From positions 1-41,486 of the forward strand of contig JAVZCK010000017.1 in NCBI GenBank assembly GCA_038874435.1: DNA of 41,486 bases. The letters are read 5' to 3'. Every line of letters begins with the position of its first letter. The first letter of the stretch is position 1. The notes under the pieces were generated by a model. It was given only the letters and a program-made list of their open reading frames with translations. It was not told the DNA's origin and did not search any database. The position numbers and the translations under genes were made by a program. This DNA is from Thermoplasmata archaeon (GTDB lineage: Archaea; Thermoplasmatota; Thermoplasmata; Lutacidiplasmatales; SKW197). Below are positions 14,487 through 25,669 of this stretch, piece by piece.

Positions 14487-15713
14487 TCAAACCTCCTCAA
14501 AAAGCTGGAGTGCATTTGAAAGGTAAAATTTTGACCACACTTTTATGTAATGGTCCAGATATGCCTTTGCCTTGCCTGTAATCTGAATCTTATTGAAATC
14601 AAATGCCTCAAAGGTGCGGGAAAAAACAACATAGTCCTTCAAGAACCCATTTTCTGGGTGCATGCAGGGATAGTAAGCAGAGGGAATGAATCTGGCTCGC
14701 AGGGCACGGAAAAGCAGTTCGGTATCATCAGCAGGGAGCATGATTTCCACATACCTCGCACCGAGAAACGACATTGTGTTGCATACCTCCTCCAGGTATT
14801 TTTCGTAGTGGCTTCGTTTCATGTTTTCAGAAATAAGCATGCAATACCTTGACTCTCTGTTAAAATAAACAAAGACCTCAGTGATTCCATCATCGCAGAT
14901 GAGCAAAAGGTCTGGCTCAAAGAATGAGAAATACCGCACATTTGTTGTGGATGTTTTCTTTCGCTGAGCAAATCTTCGCTGAATAAACATCGGTGCAGTG
15001 ATGGCCTCAAAACTGATTTTGAGAGATTCTTCGGTTTTTCTTTCATCTGCATAATTCCCTTCTGCAATTTCTGCGACATCCGGTAAACCGAGGTTGGCTG
15101 CTGCAATCGTGTAAATTTGTTTCACTTCCGGTGGCAGCACTTTCACATTTCCGTCCCTTTTTTCTTTTATCTTAGAACTTGCAAATACTAAAAGTAATAG
15201 CGTTTCATAATCCGAAACCTTTTTGAGATTTGGATAGATTCCAAAAACTTTGGTTGACAGAGGTGAGTGTTCAAAATCAACACCAGGGATGCAAGTGCGC
15301 AACTCCATGTAAAAGCTGTCCACAATGTTTTCTTTTTCAGTGAGAACTACCCTGGCAAATTCCGTGAGTTTTTCGATAATTACTCCAATCAGTTCATCGT
15401 TGTCTATCACCAGCCCTATCACACGCCCAATGCGGTTCTCATGGTCAATTTGCACAATTGTGCTTCCCTCCATCTTTCCATTGCTCTGGTTTATGCACAC
15501 AACCCAGAAGTAATCTTGTGAGCAGATTGTTGCATGGAATGCACTTCTACTGGCTGCCTCCTTGATGTTGAAGTTCGCAATATCATCAGGAGTATAGAGG
15601 TTTCTTATCTGCTCCCAGTCCTCTTCAACTGCATGTCTCAGCAGGTATGCAGCAGTTCCATGCACAAACTCAATTTTTTCTTGCCTGGCTTTTTCAACAC
15701 TCTGATTTTCCAT
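14487..15713 (-). CDS. GNAT-family acyltransferase-like protein (copy 2 of a tandem pair)
   Basis: This 408-residue protein has an N-terminal GNAT-type domain (about 15-170): VEEDWEQIRNLY, GSTIVQIDHENRIGRVIGLV and IPGVDFEHSPLSTKVFGIY, the usual N-acetyltransferase strand order. The second half (about 250-380) looks like another, degenerate GNAT-like domain ending in RFIPSAYYPCM and DYVVFSRTFEAFDF. It is clearly paralogous to the neighbouring gene 15694-16917 along its whole length. The start ATG 15713 has GGAGGAAGG upstream and lies inside the upstream paralogue. A job transferring the acyl group produced by the LuxE/LuxC-like enzymes to an amine is a guess from context only. Confidence 0.75.
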   Translation of the reverse strand: MENQSVEKARQEKIEFVHGTAAYLLRHAVEEDWEQIRNLYTPDDIANFNIKEAASRSAFHATICSQDYFWVVCINQSNGKMEGSTIVQIDHENRIGRVIGLVIDNDELIGVIIEKLTEFARVVLTEKENIVDSFYMELRTCIPGVDFEHSPLSTKVFGIYPNLKKVSDYETLLLLVFASSKIKEKRDGNVKVLPPEVKQIYTIAAANLGLPDVAEIAEGNYADERKTEESLKISFEAITAPMFIQRRFAQRKKTSTTNVRYFSFFEPDLLLICDDGITEVFVYFNRESRYCMLISENMKRSHYEKYLEEVCNTMSFLGARYVEIMLPADDTELLFRALRARFIPSAYYPCMHPENGFLKDYVVFSRTFEAFDFNKIQITGKAKAYLDHYIKVWSKFYLSNALQLFEEV

Positions 15714-16917
15714 CTTTGCCTTCCTCCTGCTTCTTAAGGTAGAACCTGGACCACACCTTCACATAGTGCTTGAGGTATTCACTGTATCTGCCCACCAGTT
15801 TTATTTGCATGAAATCAAATGCCTCAAAAGTGCGGGAGAGCACCACATAGTCCCTTAAATACCCATTCACATATCGCATGCATGGGTAGTAAGCACAGGG
15901 AATGAACCTTGCCTTCAATGCCTTGAAAAGCAGGTCTGTCTCATCTGCTGGCACCAACAATTCAATGTACATTGCTCCCAGGTCATACATTACTTTTGAA
16001 ATTGCATTTAAGTAATGGTCATAATAAAGATTGTTGAGATTGTCGCCGATGATTGCACAGTGCTGGAACTCCTTCTCAAAATACATGAAAACCTCTGTAA
16101 ACCCATCTGTGCTACAGAGCAGAAGGTTGGGCGTGTGGAAGGAGAAAAGATGGATGTTGATGATGCCTGCCTTTCTGCACTCTTCAAAGTGTCGTTTTAT
16201 GTACTTTGGTGCATCAATTACCTCAAATTTTATGTCTGGTACATTGGCTTTATCTGTGCCCGCATAGAATTTTTCCTCTTCAATCACTGGGAGAGCAGGT
16301 AGGCCCACTTCTTCTGCTGCAATTTTGTAGAGTGAGTGAACTTCTGGCGGTAATCCTTGGATTCTGGTGTATCTTTTTGCGAGGGCATGGGGTGCAAAGT
16401 AAACTGCAAGCGTATGGGTTTCATATTCACCAACCTTTTTCACATTCGGAAAAATCCCAAGTTTCTTGAAACCGAGCTTTTCTGTTATTCGTTGGGGTGC
16501 AACGAGCAATGTTCTTGTTGTGGCATAGATTGTGTCTGCAGTGCGGGATTTCTGAATAATCAATTCAATTCCAAAGATTGTCATATTTTCCATGATTGAA
16601 AAACCCCTGTAGTCAGGATGCACTGCTGCACCGAATGTCTTTGCCAAGCGGTTTGCAACATCCACCTCGAAGAGAACACTTCCAACAACCTTTTTTTCCT
16701 CACAGCACAGAAGCCAGAGAAATGATGGGTCTGCAATCGTCTCCAGCATTACCTCTCTGTCAGTTATGATTTTTGAGTGGTAATTTGGACCATAAATTTT
16801 CCAGTAAAGGTTCTGGATTTCGCTCGCATCCTCTGGTTGGGCATGACGAAAAACGAAGTTTCTGCCCTCTTTCTGATACGAAAAGGTTTTGTTCTTAAAG
16901 CTTTCAAGACCCAGCAT
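15694..16917 (-). CDS. GNAT-family acyltransferase-like protein (copy 1 of a tandem pair)
   Basis: This 407-residue protein has the same architecture as its downstream paralogue: an N-terminal GNAT-like domain with FRHAQPEDASEIQNLYWKIY, SVLFEVDVANRLAKTFGAAV and HPDYRGFSIMENMTIFGIEL (the pyrophosphate-loop region), and a second domain ending in ADETDLLFKALKARFIPCAY and DYVVLSRTFEAFDF. The shared tail segments FEAFDF and VKVWSRFYL/VKVWSKFYL show the duplication clearly. GAGGAGA precedes ATG 16917. The last 20 bases overlap the next gene, which suggests coupled translation and perhaps a heteromeric pair. The substrate is unknown. Confidence 0.75.
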   Translation of the reverse strand: MLGLESFKNKTFSYQKEGRNFVFRHAQPEDASEIQNLYWKIYGPNYHSKIITDREVMLETIADPSFLWLLCCEEKKVVGSVLFEVDVANRLAKTFGAAVHPDYRGFSIMENMTIFGIELIIQKSRTADTIYATTRTLLVAPQRITEKLGFKKLGIFPNVKKVGEYETHTLAVYFAPHALAKRYTRIQGLPPEVHSLYKIAAEEVGLPALPVIEEEKFYAGTDKANVPDIKFEVIDAPKYIKRHFEECRKAGIINIHLFSFHTPNLLLCSTDGFTEVFMYFEKEFQHCAIIGDNLNNLYYDHYLNAISKVMYDLGAMYIELLVPADETDLLFKALKARFIPCAYYPCMRYVNGYLRDYVVLSRTFEAFDFMQIKLVGRYSEYLKHYVKVWSRFYLKKQEEGKDGKSEC

Positions 16918-18564: not shown

Positions 18565-18930
18565 ATGCAAGCGGGAAAGTTGATTGGCTACATCGTGGCT
18601 GGCATTCTGCTCTTCTTTGGTATTCTCTGGATTTGGGCTGCACCTGCAAATGAAAATCCATGGATGACATTGCTCACTGGCATTATCATGATTGGAATTG
18701 CCCTAGTCATAATAGTTGCAATAAAGCTCACTGAGCCAAAGCCCACGCAGAAGGTAGAAATCTCACAGAAGCTAGATTTGCATGGCAACATGAATCTTGA
18801 GCGCTTGAAATGCAGAAGTTGTGGTGCTGACTTGAGCCAGAAGAGCATCAAGGTTGTCTCTGGCGGCGTCCTTATCTCCTGTGAGTATTGTGGAACTACC
18901 TACATGCTTGAGGAGGAGCCGAAATGGTGA
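18565..18930 (+). CDS. Small membrane protein with C-terminal zinc ribbon
   Basis: The protein of about 121 residues has two predicted membrane segments, GYIVAGILLFFGILWIWAA and LLTGIIMIGIALVIIVAIKL, and a C-terminal Cys4 zinc ribbon (CRSCGADL ... CEYCGTTYML). The frame is open back to ATG 18490. I chose ATG 18565 because the TATA box at 18537-18544 lies the correct distance for a leaderless message and the extra residues are not conserved-looking. The stop overlaps the start of the next gene (ATGGTGA), so this is the first gene of the operon with the Cys-Ala-tailed membrane protein and the radical SAM enzyme. Function unknown. Confidence 0.75.
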   Translation: MQAGKLIGYIVAGILLFFGILWIWAAPANENPWMTLLTGIIMIGIALVIIVAIKLTEPKPTQKVEISQKLDLHGNMNLERLKCRSCGADLSQKSIKVVSGGVLISCEYCGTTYMLEEEPKW

Positions 18931-20576
18931 GAGCTTGTCTTCTGCTTCTCATCGTTCTTATTACACTGGCAATTCCAGTGTCTGGTGCCCAGGAAAAACC
19001 CACGCCTACAACAAAATATGACTTTCTAGTTGAAGAGGAGATTGCTACTTGCGAAATTCAGACGGATGGCTCTGCTTGGATAACCTATTTAATCACATTC
19101 CAAAATTATGCTACAATTGATTATGTGGACATAGGAATGCCAAACAAGTACTATGACTTGAGCACTGTTTCCGCAACCCTCTACACTGGCTCCTTTGCAC
19201 CTGTGCAATTATCTGGTATAAAAAAATCTTCCGCCATTTCCTGCGGTTATGAAATTCCAATTCCAGGCCAGTATCAAACCTTACCCTATCTCCAGATATA
19301 CACAAAATGCAAGGTAACCAGAATGGTTTATCCAGATACTGAAAACTCGAGTTATGCGAGCGTGGAGTTCTATCCCACATGGTGGGGTGATTTTTGCAGA
19401 GACATGGCATTTCTCCAGACCACTATAATTTTTCCGCCAGCAGTGACAGACCCGAATTCAACAAAATGGCATCATCAAACCCCTGATTGGATGCGATTTG
19501 AAGATGGGAAAATAAAGTTTACCTGGAATTCAAGTGGGAATTATGAGCATAAGTATGGTGTTTCTTTCCCAAGAAGTGCAGTTACAAATGTGTTTGAGCC
19601 AGAACAACCTAGTTTCTGGGATAATTTTCTGAATGACTTTGTATTCTACATCCCCTATTACTGCTGCACCTGCGGCCCAGGCATCTTCATTCTCATAGTG
19701 GTGGGCATTGCATTCTACACCTCTTGGAAGAGCAAGATGGAGTATTTACCGCCCAGTGTGGGTGTGGAGGGAATGGGCATAAAGTATGGTTTGACTGCAC
19801 CGGAGGCAGCTGTGCTACTCAAGGTCCCACTTAACAAAATTGTGAACATGGTGTTCTTTGGCATGTACAAAAAAGGAGTGATATCTGTTGAGAGTCGCAA
19901 TCCACTTGTGCTCAGGGTTTTACGCACAGATTACAATGACCTACACCCATATGAAGTTGGTTTCCGAGCCGCAATAAAGCCAGATGGAACGCTAGACGAG
20001 GAAATTCTGAAAAGTGCAACAGTTCAGTTAATAAAGGATGTTGAAACCAAACTTCGGGGCTTTTCAAGGAAGGAAACCGCAGATTACTACAGGCAAATAA
20101 TAAAGAGAGCATGGGAGCAGGTAAAGGCAGCCCAGATGGATGATGCTAAGCTTAAAATCCTTGAGGATAACTTTGATTGGATGTACATGGACGATAGCTT
20201 CGACAGAGAATTGAAAAAGAACTATGGGACTGGCCACTACAGAACACCCTACTGGTATCCCTTCTTCTACCCACGAGTTGTTTATATCCATCCCTCAGCA
20301 CCCACCCGTGCACCCTCATCAGCAGGTACACCCCCTTCCCTTCCAATGCTACCTGGCTCTGAATTCGCAAACCAGATTGTTTCTGGCATTCAGAACTCTG
20401 CGAATCAGTTTGTCAGAAATGTGACTGGCTTTACCCAGAGTGTTTCTGCAGTTACGAATCCTGCGCCTGTATCCACTGGAGGCGGAACGAGAACTGGAGG
20501 TTTCGGAGGTGGTGGCTGCGCCTGTGCATGTGCCTGTGCGGGCTGTGCTTGTGCTTGTGCTGGAGGTGGAAGATAA
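18924..20576 (+). CDS. DUF2207-like membrane protein with a C-terminal Cys-Ala repeat
   Basis: This 550-residue protein has a signal peptide (LLLLIVLITLAIPVSGA), an extracellular beta-rich region (about 30-235) and a membrane segment containing ILIVVGIAFYTSW near residue 255. A cytosolic part looks like a winged helix (LTAPEAAVLLKVPLNKIVNM and FGMYKKGVISVE), as in DUF2207-type proteins. A low-complexity Pro/Ser/Ala region precedes the glycine-rich end. The last residues are GGGG, CACACACAGCACACA, then GGGR: seven Cys alternating with Ala. The Cys and Ala codons vary synonymously, which points to selection on the protein. The start has GAGGAGG upstream and overlaps the zinc-ribbon gene. The stop overlaps the radical SAM start (TAATG). 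That context makes the Cys-Ala tail a candidate substrate for the SAM enzyme. Confidence 0.82.
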   Translation: MVRACLLLLIVLITLAIPVSGAQEKPTPTTKYDFLVEEEIATCEIQTDGSAWITYLITFQNYATIDYVDIGMPNKYYDLSTVSATLYTGSFAPVQLSGIKKSSAISCGYEIPIPGQYQTLPYLQIYTKCKVTRMVYPDTENSSYASVEFYPTWWGDFCRDMAFLQTTIIFPPAVTDPNSTKWHHQTPDWMRFEDGKIKFTWNSSGNYEHKYGVSFPRSAVTNVFEPEQPSFWDNFLNDFVFYIPYYCCTCGPGIFILIVVGIAFYTSWKSKMEYLPPSVGVEGMGIKYGLTAPEAAVLLKVPLNKIVNMVFFGMYKKGVISVESRNPLVLRVLRTDYNDLHPYEVGFRAAIKPDGTLDEEILKSATVQLIKDVETKLRGFSRKETADYYRQIIKRAWEQVKAAQMDDAKLKILEDNFDWMYMDDSFDRELKKNYGTGHYRTPYWYPFFYPRVVYIHPSAPTRAPSSAGTPPSLPMLPGSEFANQIVSGIQNSANQFVRNVTGFTQSVSAVTNPAPVSTGGGTRTGGFGGGGCACACACAGCACACAGGGR

Positions 20577-21931
20577 TGGTGAGTGCGTTTCTGAAAAGGG
20601 TATTCGGGAAAAAAAAGCCATTGCCACCAGGAATGCATCACTTTCTTGGCAAGGGAGAGTTTGAGGGTGCGAGATTTCACATTAGGATAGAGCCAGGTGG
20701 AAAGGCAGTCCTCATCATCAACGCAGCCAGAATTCTCCATCTGAATGCCACTGCTGCAGAGTACGCACTTGCAATTCTTTCTGGGAAAAGCAGTGAAGAG
20801 GTGGTAAAGGAGGTAAGGGCAAGATACAGAGTTGGAAAGAAACAGGCAAGTGCGGATGAGAAAAGGATGCGGGAACTCATCACGAATCTGGTCAAAAATC
20901 CTGACATCTGCCCAATCTCATATCTTGATGTGGAGGTTGTGGAGCCATTTACAACCCCAGTTTCAGCACCCTACAGAATGGACCTGGCTCTAACATACAG
21001 GTGCAACGATAAATGCCTACACTGCTATGTGGGTGAACGAGAAAAAAAGGAAATGAAGTTGGAGGACTGGCTCAAGGTGATTGATAAACTTCACAAGATT
21101 GGTGTGCCCCACATTGTTTTTACAGGTGGCGAGCCAACCCTTTACGATGGGCTTGAAAAACTCATAGAAAGAGCTGAAAAACATGGCATTGTTACAGGGC
21201 TGAACACAAATGGGAGAAAGCTTGCGGACAGGAACTACCTGCGGAAACTTGTGGATGCTGGCCTCGACCATGTGCAAATTACCGTTGAATCCGCAGATAA
21301 GGAGATTCACAACAAAATGGTTCAAGCGAACGCATTTGAGGAAACAATTCAGGGCTTGAAAAATGCGCTGGACACAAAGCTGTATGTGCTCACAAACACC
21401 ACAATCACAAAATTGAACAAGGATATAATTGAGCAAACTGTGAAATTTTTGCATAGTTTGGGGGTAAAAAACATTGCCTGCAATGGCCTGATTTATTCTG
21501 GGAGAGGCAGAGAATGCGAACTCGGGCTTGATGAAAAGGAATTGATAGAGCCAGTTATGAAAGCAAAGATGACAGCTTTAGCTCTTGGAATGCGTTTCAT
21601 CTGGTACACTCCAACTCAGTATTGTAACTTTAACCCAGTAAATTATGGAGTGGGTGCGAAGCAGTGCTCCGCTGCAAAGAGCAACATGTGCATAGAGCCG
21701 GATGGCGAAGTTATCCCATGTCAGAGCTATTACGAGAGTGTGGGCAACATCCTCAAAGACCCATGGGAGAAGATTTGGAATGCAGAGCTTTGCAAGAAAA
21801 TCAGGGAAAGGGCGTATGCACCAGAGAAGTGCAAAAAATGTGCAGATTTCAATATCTGTGGTGCGGGCTGTCCGCTCTATCTCATGGAGACAGGCACAGT
21901 TTGTCAGAGTCCCACTGGTGGTGCGGTGTGA
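20576..21931 (+). CDS. PqqD-like/radical SAM/SPASM peptide-modifying enzyme
   Basis: The N-terminal region (about residues 15-100; ILHLNATAAEYALAILSGKS) resembles PqqD-type peptide-recognition domains. The radical SAM core follows, with the CX3CX2C cluster motif in LTYRCNDKCLHCYVGE near residue 140 and FTGGEPTLY near 180. The C-terminal SPASM region has many Cys (CIEPDGEVIPCQ, CKKCADFNICGAGCPLY) for auxiliary Fe-S clusters. This arrangement is typical of enzymes that install cross-links in ribosomally made peptides, and also of AhbC/NirJ-type haem enzymes. The start ATG 20576 has GGAGGTGG six bases upstream; the longer frame just reads the Cys-Ala repeat in another frame. The substrate is inferred from context. 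Confidence 0.88.
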   Translation: MVSAFLKRVFGKKKPLPPGMHHFLGKGEFEGARFHIRIEPGGKAVLIINAARILHLNATAAEYALAILSGKSSEEVVKEVRARYRVGKKQASADEKRMRELITNLVKNPDICPISYLDVEVVEPFTTPVSAPYRMDLALTYRCNDKCLHCYVGEREKKEMKLEDWLKVIDKLHKIGVPHIVFTGGEPTLYDGLEKLIERAEKHGIVTGLNTNGRKLADRNYLRKLVDAGLDHVQITVESADKEIHNKMVQANAFEETIQGLKNALDTKLYVLTNTTITKLNKDIIEQTVKFLHSLGVKNIACNGLIYSGRGRECELGLDEKELIEPVMKAKMTALALGMRFIWYTPTQYCNFNPVNYGVGAKQCSAAKSNMCIEPDGEVIPCQSYYESVGNILKDPWEKIWNAELCKKIRERAYAPEKCKKCADFNICGAGCPLYLMETGTVCQSPTGGAV

Positions 21932-22647
21932 GAGCTGAGGAATGGGATGAATTTTTTATTTACCAGGCAAGCTGGGGAAAAGAAGCCAGAAAGTTTGTTT
22001 ACAGGCATACAGACCTCTTCAACGCCAAGAATGTGCTTGAACTTGGTTGCGGCACAGGTGTAATCACGCAGGAAATTGCAGAAAGAACAGAGGCAAAAGT
22101 TACAGCCATAGATATAAACAATGCATTTCTTGAGATTGCAAAAAAGCGTGTAAAGGCGAGAAATGTGGAGTTTCAGGAGATGGATGCCCATGCTCTTGAG
22201 CTTCCTGATGAATTTTTTGATGGAATTTATTTTGCAAATTTTTTGCTCTGGGTAAAAGAGCCAGATAAGGTTTTTTCAGAAATTGTCAGGGTTTTAAAAC
22301 CATCTGGCTATGTGGGGATTCTTTCAGAGCCCGACTATGGTGGCAGGGTGGACTATCCATGTGAAGGCATCTGGGAAAAAGTGGTTGTGAAACTGAAGGA
22401 AGGAGGGGCAGACCCTTTCATCGGGAGAAAGTTGAGGGAACTCTGCAGAAACCGTGGGCTTGAGGTGAAACTGGATGCATTGCAGGGCATGTTCACACCC
22501 GAGGAAATCGGGAGATGCTATGATTTTGAAGCTAAATTTGCTGATGTGCCTAAGGAAATGTTAGTTGAAGCAAAGAAGGCAGTGAATCAAGGATTTGCGT
22601 TTTTGCTTGTACCAGTGGTCTATGGGTATGGGTGGAAGGGCAGATAA
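21928..22647 (+). CDS. Class I SAM-dependent methyltransferase
   Basis: This protein of about 240 residues has the glycine-rich SAM loop VLELGCGTGVITQEIA (near residue 38), the acidic strand VTAIDINNAFLEIAKKR, and later motifs FDGIYFANFLLWV and VRVLKPSGYVGIL. The family covers small-molecule and protein methylation, so the substrate cannot be read from the sequence. The start is GTG 21928, overlapping the radical SAM stop as GTGA. The frame is open much further upstream, but there it only shadows the radical SAM gene. Its position as fourth gene of the operon suggests it acts on the same peptide or product. A degenerate copy of part of it lies at 23681-23800. Confidence 0.87.
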   Translation: MRAEEWDEFFIYQASWGKEARKFVYRHTDLFNAKNVLELGCGTGVITQEIAERTEAKVTAIDINNAFLEIAKKRVKARNVEFQEMDAHALELPDEFFDGIYFANFLLWVKEPDKVFSEIVRVLKPSGYVGILSEPDYGGRVDYPCEGIWEKVVVKLKEGGADPFIGRKLRELCRNRGLEVKLDALQGMFTPEEIGRCYDFEAKFADVPKEMLVEAKKAVNQGFAFLLVPVVYGYGWKGR

Positions 22648-24775: not shown

Positions 24776-25669
24776 TTAAAAGGTAATGGTTTTGTGAGAG
24801 CCAGAGTTTCTGTTTCTGTAGTTTTTCACACGCTTGAAAAGCTCTACAATTCCTATGATTTTCTCGTAAAAATCGGGCAGAATTTTAAACATTAAAAGGG
24901 TAAGAATGAAAAGGGTAGAAAAACTTATGACTTTGCCGACAAAATTATGAGCGAACTCAAAGCCAGTGACACCAGAAAACCAAGAATAATTTGTTGCGGT
25001 GCAGTAAATCACAATTGCATTTCTAATTGCGTTCACGAAGTAGATTACTGGAATTGTGATTCCAATGCACATGCATTTTCTTTTCAAGCTTGAGGAGGTG
25101 GCAAGCACCGCAAACACATCCACAACGATCGCCTGAATTCCAGTGCAAGCAAGAACAATGTTCACTACATTCTTGCCGTTCCAAACCACTTCCATGTAAA
25201 TTTCCTCAAAATTGCTACGAATGAACTGGGAGTTGCCGAGATAATTTAATCCTCCTGTTGTGACTCCATTCATGAACAGTGCATTTGCGAACCAGACACT
25301 CTGCTCTGTGACGATCTGAATTAGAATTGCACTGATACCAGGGATGCAATCAATCACATAATATGCCACTCCCGCACCGAAAATCAGTTTCGCTAAGAAC
25401 TCCATGCTTTCATTTTTCTCTTCCATGCGGAACGAAATGTATTCATTGTAGGCGAGAAAGCCAAAACCCAGAATTGCGGTTCCTGAGAGAAACATTGGTA
25501 GATAGTCGTGGATGTAGAAGTAATGAGGTGTATAGAAGAGCCAGTAAAGACCAAAAATAATATATCCCGCAATCCTTGCTTTGTATCTCAGCTTCTTTTT
25601 TGAGAAGCAACCGACACCAAAACAACCGAGAGAAACAAAGAGCAGAAGGTAGAGAACAAGCAAATACAT
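24776..25669 (-). CDS. artA: Archaeosortase A
   Basis: This integral membrane protein of 297 residues has about eight hydrophobic segments. The exosortase/archaeosortase catalytic signature is complete: Cys in LACTGIQAIVVD (residue 175), Arg in VNAIRNAIV (216) and His in FEFAHNFVGK (241). ArtA removes the C-terminal PGF-CTERM segment of surface proteins and links them to a membrane lipid. A candidate substrate is encoded at 27752-31534. The start ATG 25669 directly follows the stop of the Lrp-like gene with no ribosome binding site of its own, so translation is presumably coupled. It is the last gene of the EF-1alpha/uS10 series. Confidence 0.92.
   Translation of the reverse strand: MYLLVLYLLLFVSLGCFGVGCFSKKKLRYKARIAGYIIFGLYWLFYTPHYFYIHDYLPMFLSGTAILGFGFLAYNEYISFRMEEKNESMEFLAKLIFGAGVAYYVIDCIPGISAILIQIVTEQSVWFANALFMNGVTTGGLNYLGNSQFIRSNFEEIYMEVVWNGKNVVNIVLACTGIQAIVVDVFAVLATSSSLKRKCMCIGITIPVIYFVNAIRNAIVIYCTATNYSWFSGVTGFEFAHNFVGKVISFSTLFILTLLMFKILPDFYEKIIGIVELFKRVKNYRNRNSGSHKTITF

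Follow-up and report, generated by a model that had tools for sequence, protein, structure and literature searches.

A widespread pairing of radical SAM/SPASM enzymes with Cys-Ala-tailed membrane proteins in Archaea and Bacteria, a probable protein-modification system

A radical SAM/SPASM enzyme encoded in the genome of a Thermoplasmata archaeon probably cross-links the Cys-Ala tail of a membrane-anchored protein encoded by the adjoining gene, the two proteins forming a two-component protein-modification system. The genes lie in a 41,486-nucleotide stretch of DNA, the whole of which is referred to here as the window. Analysis of other genomes indicates that the genes belong to a conserved, unnamed system and are no isolated oddity, and that the finding is larger than an initial annotation of the window had claimed. 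It is very likely that the tail is the substrate of the enzyme, which is an inference given that no chemistry has been observed, and co-occurrence alone is no proof of it.

The locus consists of four coupled genes at 18565-22647, which encode a zinc-ribbon membrane protein, the Cys-Ala-tailed protein, the radical SAM/SPASM enzyme and a methyltransferase. The features are as follows.

18565..18930, + strand: small membrane protein with a C-terminal zinc ribbon (CxxC...CxxC); 7-base overlap with the next gene
18924..20576, + strand: Cys-Ala-tailed membrane protein, 550 aa (from the ORF, AlphaFold2 model and hydropathy)
20355..20456, + strand: codons for helices 478-511, a candidate recognition element for the enzyme's PqqD-like domain, inferred from the model and moderate conservation, without binding data
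20517..20573, + strand: tail CACACACAGCACACAGGGR, the exact C-terminus and presumed modification site (from conservation, disorder in the model and synonymous-only change)
20576..21931, + strand: radical SAM/SPASM enzyme, 451 aa (from Pfam, invariant Cys, model and fold neighbours)
21928..22647, + strand: class I SAM-dependent methyltransferase, 239 aa, GTG start (Pfam Methyltransf_11 3.6e-25)

The ATG of the enzyme gene overlaps the TAA of the tailed gene, and all four genes as well as their coupling were confirmed where the initial annotation had placed them. The start that it had assigned to the zinc-ribbon gene is also right, because in the sister genome L027 a stop codon lies 5' of the ATG corresponding to 18565. 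The order of zinc ribbon, tailed gene and enzyme is kept in the fetched Thermoplasmata neighbourhoods, and almost all Thermoplasmata loci, as well as many Chloroflexota loci, have a zinc-ribbon homologue immediately 5' of the tailed gene. At least two Firmicute proteins (L049 and L059) carry a zinc ribbon inside the tailed protein itself, which faintly suggests a functional link between the separate zinc-ribbon gene and the others. The accessory members of the system are the zinc-ribbon protein and the methyltransferase.

Homologous radical SAM genes found mainly without such tails would have refuted the initial annotation, and this is not what the three groups surveyed contain. Within the class Thermoplasmata the tailed protein is present in 22 of 300 genomes, its identity outside the genus being roughly 28-41%. 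The enzyme, sought in the same genome draw at a threshold of E up to 1e-40, is present in 21 of the 300, all of them among the 22 tailed genomes; in the 22nd the contig ends inside the enzyme gene. Every homologue of this class with a readable C-terminus ends CACACA...GGGR. In a Lachnospiraceae family, 24 of 299 genomes possess the enzyme, with the tail within 1.5 kb in 24 of 24, and an independent DNA-pattern search of the same 299 genomes for the tail, which required the GRAGC extension typical of that group, returned the identical 24 and no other (Fisher 6e-36). A clear orthologue (498-1041 bits) occurs in 20 of 301 Chloroflexota genomes, where 20 of 20 adjoin a CACACA tail; the pairing was tested there in one direction only, from enzyme to tail, and weaker matches (206-237 bits) include degenerate second paralogues at the same loci. 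The enzyme is accompanied by a tail in 21 of 21, 24 of 24 and 20 of 20 cases, and tails without the enzyme are absent from the two groups tested for them, bar the one contig break. The tail-enzyme pairing is obligate.

A GTDB scan for DNA encoding CACACAGGG gave at least 80 loci, and among the matches listed 5 are due to chance and 75 are genuine. The enzyme or a related gene lies within the fetched DNA at 62 of the 75 genuine loci among the matches listed, a count that includes L053 and L113, which have only a pseudo-SAM-type gene or fragment. Motif genomes that were searched whole contain exactly one enzyme in 12 of 12 cases at the threshold used, and these include L068, L071 and L117, for which the fetched locus had not contained the enzyme. 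Among the matches listed, the archaeal loci belong to Thermoplasmatota, Asgard lineages, Bathyarchaeota, Thermoproteota and Methanocella, and the bacterial loci to Chloroflexota, Zixibacteria, Coatesbacteria, Aminicenantes, Planctomycetes, Armatimonadetes, Krumholzibacteria and Firmicutes. Named isolates with a complete locus include Ornatilinea apprima P3M-1 (L090). In some Lachnospiraceae, one contig encodes two different Cys-Ala-tailed proteins and one enzyme, as observed for L064 and for L093 and L104 (JAGCVT010000087.1).

The tailed protein of the window ends in GGGGCACACACAGCACACAGGGR, and its C-terminus is laid out as ...GGFGGGG-CACACACAGCACACA-GGGR-stop, so the Cys-Ala tail between Gly runs, as read from the ORF, is present as the initial annotation had described it. 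In the 2.16-Mb genome the sole matches to the encoding pattern TGYGCNTGYGCNTGYGC are three overlapping ones at this tail, a reversed control of the pattern has no match there, and the same tail terminates homologues with an overall identity of just 25-37%. Since the pattern is unique in the genome and the same tail occurs on divergent homologues, the tail is not a product of chance. A chance Cys-Ala run was rejected as an explanation, the chance motif matches of the GTDB scan (L057, L058, L069, L079 and L099) being without either partner gene. Over the last 24 codons the window differs from its 82%-identical sister by 8 synonymous and 0 non-synonymous changes, and the 30-base motif exists in 131 different DNA versions across all loci; an Arg follows the motif in 115 of the 131, though the search pattern did not demand it. 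Because the codons vary while the residues of the tail do not, selection acts on the protein, which upholds the inference that had been drawn from synonymous codon variation in the repeat. A DNA-level repeat or slippage was likewise rejected, as codons differ freely among species.

The tail is the best conserved stretch in 50 aligned proteins, with a mean column identity of 0.84 versus 0.20-0.54 for the other segments, and its pLDDT below 50 in the AlphaFold2 model predicts that it is disordered. An end that is nearly invariant yet disordered looks like the substrate of an enzyme. Proteins of the archaeal and Chloroflexota form end exactly with the tail (CACACACACACAGGGR or CACACACAGCACACAGGGR), Firmicute tails extend as GGGRAGCSxKDFYxT and are often preceded by CAHSS or CASS units, and the tails of Thermoproteota and Bathyarchaeota end in GGGVG or similar. 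These tail variants follow the enzyme tree, on which the tail types change 6 times (minimum 5; shuffled mean 25).

The model of the tailed protein is otherwise confident, its overall mean pLDDT being 85.8. The model and hydropathy predict a signal peptide (about residues 1-22), an extracellular beta domain (34-216) and a single membrane span (about 246-264), which in the model is followed by a winged-helix-like and helical cytosolic region (292-434), helices 478-511 (pLDDT mostly 84-93, conservation moderate), a Gly linker and the tail. Lys and Arg number 3.2 in the 15 residues after the span versus 1.2 in those before it in the archaeal-type set, and the same crude measure gives 2.0 versus 2.0, hence no bias, in the Firmicute set. 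From the layout of the model and the Lys/Arg excess after the span, the latter for the archaeal-type set only, it is inferred that the tail is probably cytosolic and on the enzyme's own side of the membrane.

Family tests place the tailed protein in no described group. The window protein matched no Pfam or NCBIfam model, a search of the PDB with the tailed-protein profile gave no match, and the sole match of the fold search was a common beta domain, as in ribophorin I and M1 aminopeptidase N-domains. DUF2207 proteins possess a signal peptide, an extracellular beta domain, a membrane span, a cytosolic part and a Gly-rich end, a generally known layout that is similar to that of the tailed protein. 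The label "DUF2207-like" in the initial annotation nevertheless had to be given up for the window protein, which does not reach the gathering score of either DUF2207 model (PF09972, PF20990); Firmicute tailed proteins touch these models weakly (0.003-0.005). No description of a Cys-Ala tail for DUF2207 was found in the searchable literature. The TIGR04222 model (curated cut-off 43 bits) did not match the window protein either, and it was touched by 6 of the 50 tailed proteins, weakly (best 1e-5), while hhalign of tailed proteins against two TIGR04222 members was weak. At the level of sequence, a distant kinship of the tailed proteins with TIGR04222 is hinted at, and the window protein is not a member of that family.

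The identification of the enzyme as a radical SAM/SPASM protein is borne out by Pfam matches to Radical_SAM (1.2e-29) and SPASM (5.5e-12); its match to PqqD (0.0025), at 18.5 bits, falls below the Pfam cut-off of 23.4. The model of the enzyme (pTM 0.90) resembles RiPP maturases, with strands and three helices at 19-107 in PqqD-like order and then a radical SAM barrel and SPASM domain. The CxxxCxxC motif at 143/147/150 is invariant in 46 of 46 aligned enzymes. SPASM cysteines of the window enzyme are located at 350, 364, 382, 419, 422, 428, 432 and 443, of which 364, 382 and 432 are invariant, as are Cys 143, 147 and 150. The full SPASM cysteine set is present in the window enzyme and in the archaeal and most bacterial forms; Firmicute enzymes, for example L049:687-2078 (+) and L082:4007-5380 (-), keep C364, C382 and C432 and are without CxxCx5CxxxC (Aux II type). 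The closest solved structure is SkfB, by profile (3.5e-36) as well as by fold (6.7e-17), and the fold neighbours that follow it are SuiB, PqqE and anSME, with EpeE at rank 39. These neighbours are mixed in that they include C-C cross-linking (SuiB, PqqE), oxidising (anSME) and epimerising (EpeE) enzymes, and every curated NCBIfam equivalog cut-off is missed widely by the enzyme (best NirJ2, 121 versus 500 bits).

Several other roles for the enzyme were rejected. Matches to NirJ, AhbC and AhbD, which would point to a haem-type function, are all far below cut-off and no haem gene is among the conserved neighbours. PADLOC matches to anti-phage viperin span just the shared radical SAM core, and mobile-element cargo is not supported, there being no plasmid match and only distant radical SAM matches on viral contigs (20-44% over best segments). 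A second radical-SAM-like paralogue without CxxxCxxC lies beside the enzyme in Chloroflexota, Planctomycetes and Armatimonadetes loci, for example L074:3469-4674 (+), L092:3680-5047 (-), L050 and L103, and it may be a pseudo-SAM partner subunit.

In the proposed mechanism, the N-terminal PqqD-like domain, a putative RRE, would bind the C-terminal region of the tailed protein, and the enzyme would abstract hydrogen atoms from (Cys-Ala)n residues to install Cys-derived cross-links on the disordered, cytosol-facing tail. Thioethers are considered the most likely product because of the likeness to SkfB and the near-invariant cysteines, but the chemistry is inferred and the chance that the product is a thioether is about even. 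The protein would remain anchored in the membrane with its tail attached, as inferred from the absence of a conserved protease gene nearby, and the tail might then provide a redox or metal site tethered to the membrane. The initial annotation had proposed a thioether-type modification of the tail; the pairing and the SkfB-like enzyme support this proposal, while the modification itself, the thioether and any action of the methyltransferase have not been shown. Epimerisation, methylation and no modification also remain possible.

An enzyme that epimerises the alanines would produce an alternating L-Cys/D-Ala chain that could form a beta-helix and leave the Cys side chains available for redox or metal chemistry. 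The strict two-residue alternation fits an every-other-residue epimerase, and the fold matches include a radical SAM epimerase, EpeE, but it ranks far below SkfB, SuiB, PqqE and anSME, the near-invariant Cys suggests that sulfur participates, and the spacing variants CASSC and CVSC break the alternation, which leaves epimerisation unlikely. It is equally improbable that the tail is a true RiPP core that is modified and then cleaved from the protein to yield a free peptide, cofactor or metallophore. Although the enzyme type and the Gly-flanked Cys core are RiPP-like, no protease or exporter gene is conserved at the loci, the tail is predicted to be cytosolic, and large, conserved extracellular and membrane regions would not be expected of a precursor. 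Alternatively, the Cys-Ala tail could be left unmodified as a thiolate ligand for a metal or Fe-S cluster, with the target of the enzyme elsewhere in the same pathway. CxC repeats are similar to metal-thiolate sites, the system is accompanied by zinc-ribbon domains, and an unmodified tail, which is itself fairly apolar, could bind metal or membrane. This reading is quite unlikely, since it leaves unexplained why the enzyme is never without the tail in three groups, and the closest solved enzymes are mostly peptide maturases, several of them with RRE domains.

The methyltransferase bears on a further alternative, in which it and the radical SAM enzyme jointly methylate the tail (S- or C-methylation). 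The initial annotation had counted this gene as part of the system, which is supported in so far as it encodes a class I enzyme and is a frequent neighbour. The methyltransferase (METHYLTRANSFERASE) immediately follows the enzyme in most loci of Thermoplasmata, Asgard and Zixibacteria, and in Chloroflexota it comes after the pseudo-SAM gene; relatives at these loci mostly score 63-157 bits versus 40 for paralogues in the window's genome. It is co-directional in Asgard and Zixibacteria and convergent in most Thermoplasmata except the window's genus. The gene is not universal, however, as none was found in Firmicute loci among the matches listed, though tail and enzyme are present there. Joint methylation would account for the methyltransferase following the enzyme in most Thermoplasmata and Asgard and many bacterial loci, but it is highly unlikely given that no match to the gene is listed for the Firmicute loci and that in most Thermoplasmata it is convergent and outside the operon.

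Cross-linking of the tail, the preferred explanation, has partial counterparts among known systems. SkfB and other sactisynthases (PDB 6efn; PMC6231123) share the architecture of radical SAM and SPASM/Twitch domains, preceded in the window enzyme by a putative RRE, and SkfB, which has an RRE and one auxiliary cluster, forms a thioether from Cys to the alpha-carbon of Met12 (PMC6231123). SkfB differs in that it is 22% identical to the window enzyme and acts on a small precursor peptide (55 residues), not on the C-terminus of a 550-aa membrane protein. RiPP systems in general are defined by a small precursor with leader and core, a criterion which the presumed substrate does not meet. PqqE, SuiB, anSME and CteB are profile or fold relatives that act as radical SAM/SPASM enzymes on peptides or proteins, but their chemistries differ and their curated equivalog cut-offs are missed by the window enzyme.

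The closest known parallel is that of MNIO enzymes and TIGR04222 integral membrane proteins, which have an unstructured Gly/Ser/Cys-rich C-terminus and have been proposed to be protein, not peptide, substrates (PMC12452194). Both cases involve a membrane protein with a Cys-rich C-terminus encoded beside a peptide-modifying enzyme. Here, however, a radical SAM/SPASM protein takes the place of the iron oxidase, the tail is a Cys-Ala one that in the archaeal form lies at the exact C-terminus, it is predicted to be cytosolic whereas TIGR04222 tails are predicted to be periplasmic, and the pairing is obligate where that of MNIO and TIGR04222 is loose. The spread across Archaea and Bacteria also distinguishes the Cys-Ala-tail system, and MNIO (PF05114) is not among the conserved neighbours of the tailed protein, which are the radical SAM, zinc-ribbon and methyltransferase genes. 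In Kitasatospora griseola (L248/L249), tandem TIGR04222 proteins (120 and 110 bits) adjoin an MNIO (PF05114, 1.8e-80), and one of them ends in a Cys/Ser/Gly-rich tail.

No NCBIfam or Pfam model names either partner, and no paper describing the tail-enzyme pair was found in the open-access literature, a search that misses most subscription journals and all preprints. Whether the system, unnamed and widespread in Archaea and Bacteria, turns a cytosolic (Cys-Ala)n tail into a permanently attached, cross-linked prosthetic group, as a radical-chemistry counterpart of the MNIO/TIGR04222 pairs, is evenly balanced. If the tail is modified, the pairs constitute a large unannotated class of radical SAM protein modification that ranges from Asgard archaea and methanogens to gut Lachnospiraceae and Chloroflexota, and RiPP-type chemistry would no longer be confined to small peptides but would include integral membrane proteins, at their cytosolic end. 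With a short, nearly invariant tail whose gene adjoins that of the presumed enzyme, the chemistry is directly testable.

Elsewhere in the window, tandem genes on the - strand (14487-15713 and 15694-16917) encode related proteins of 407-408 aa, the first of which matches no named family and the second of which has weak similarity to GNAT acetyltransferases. An archaeosortase A-like gene (TIGR04125, 112 bits, cut-off 75) lies at 24776-25669 on the - strand, and its sequence suggests that this archaeon may possess a C-terminal protein-sorting system.
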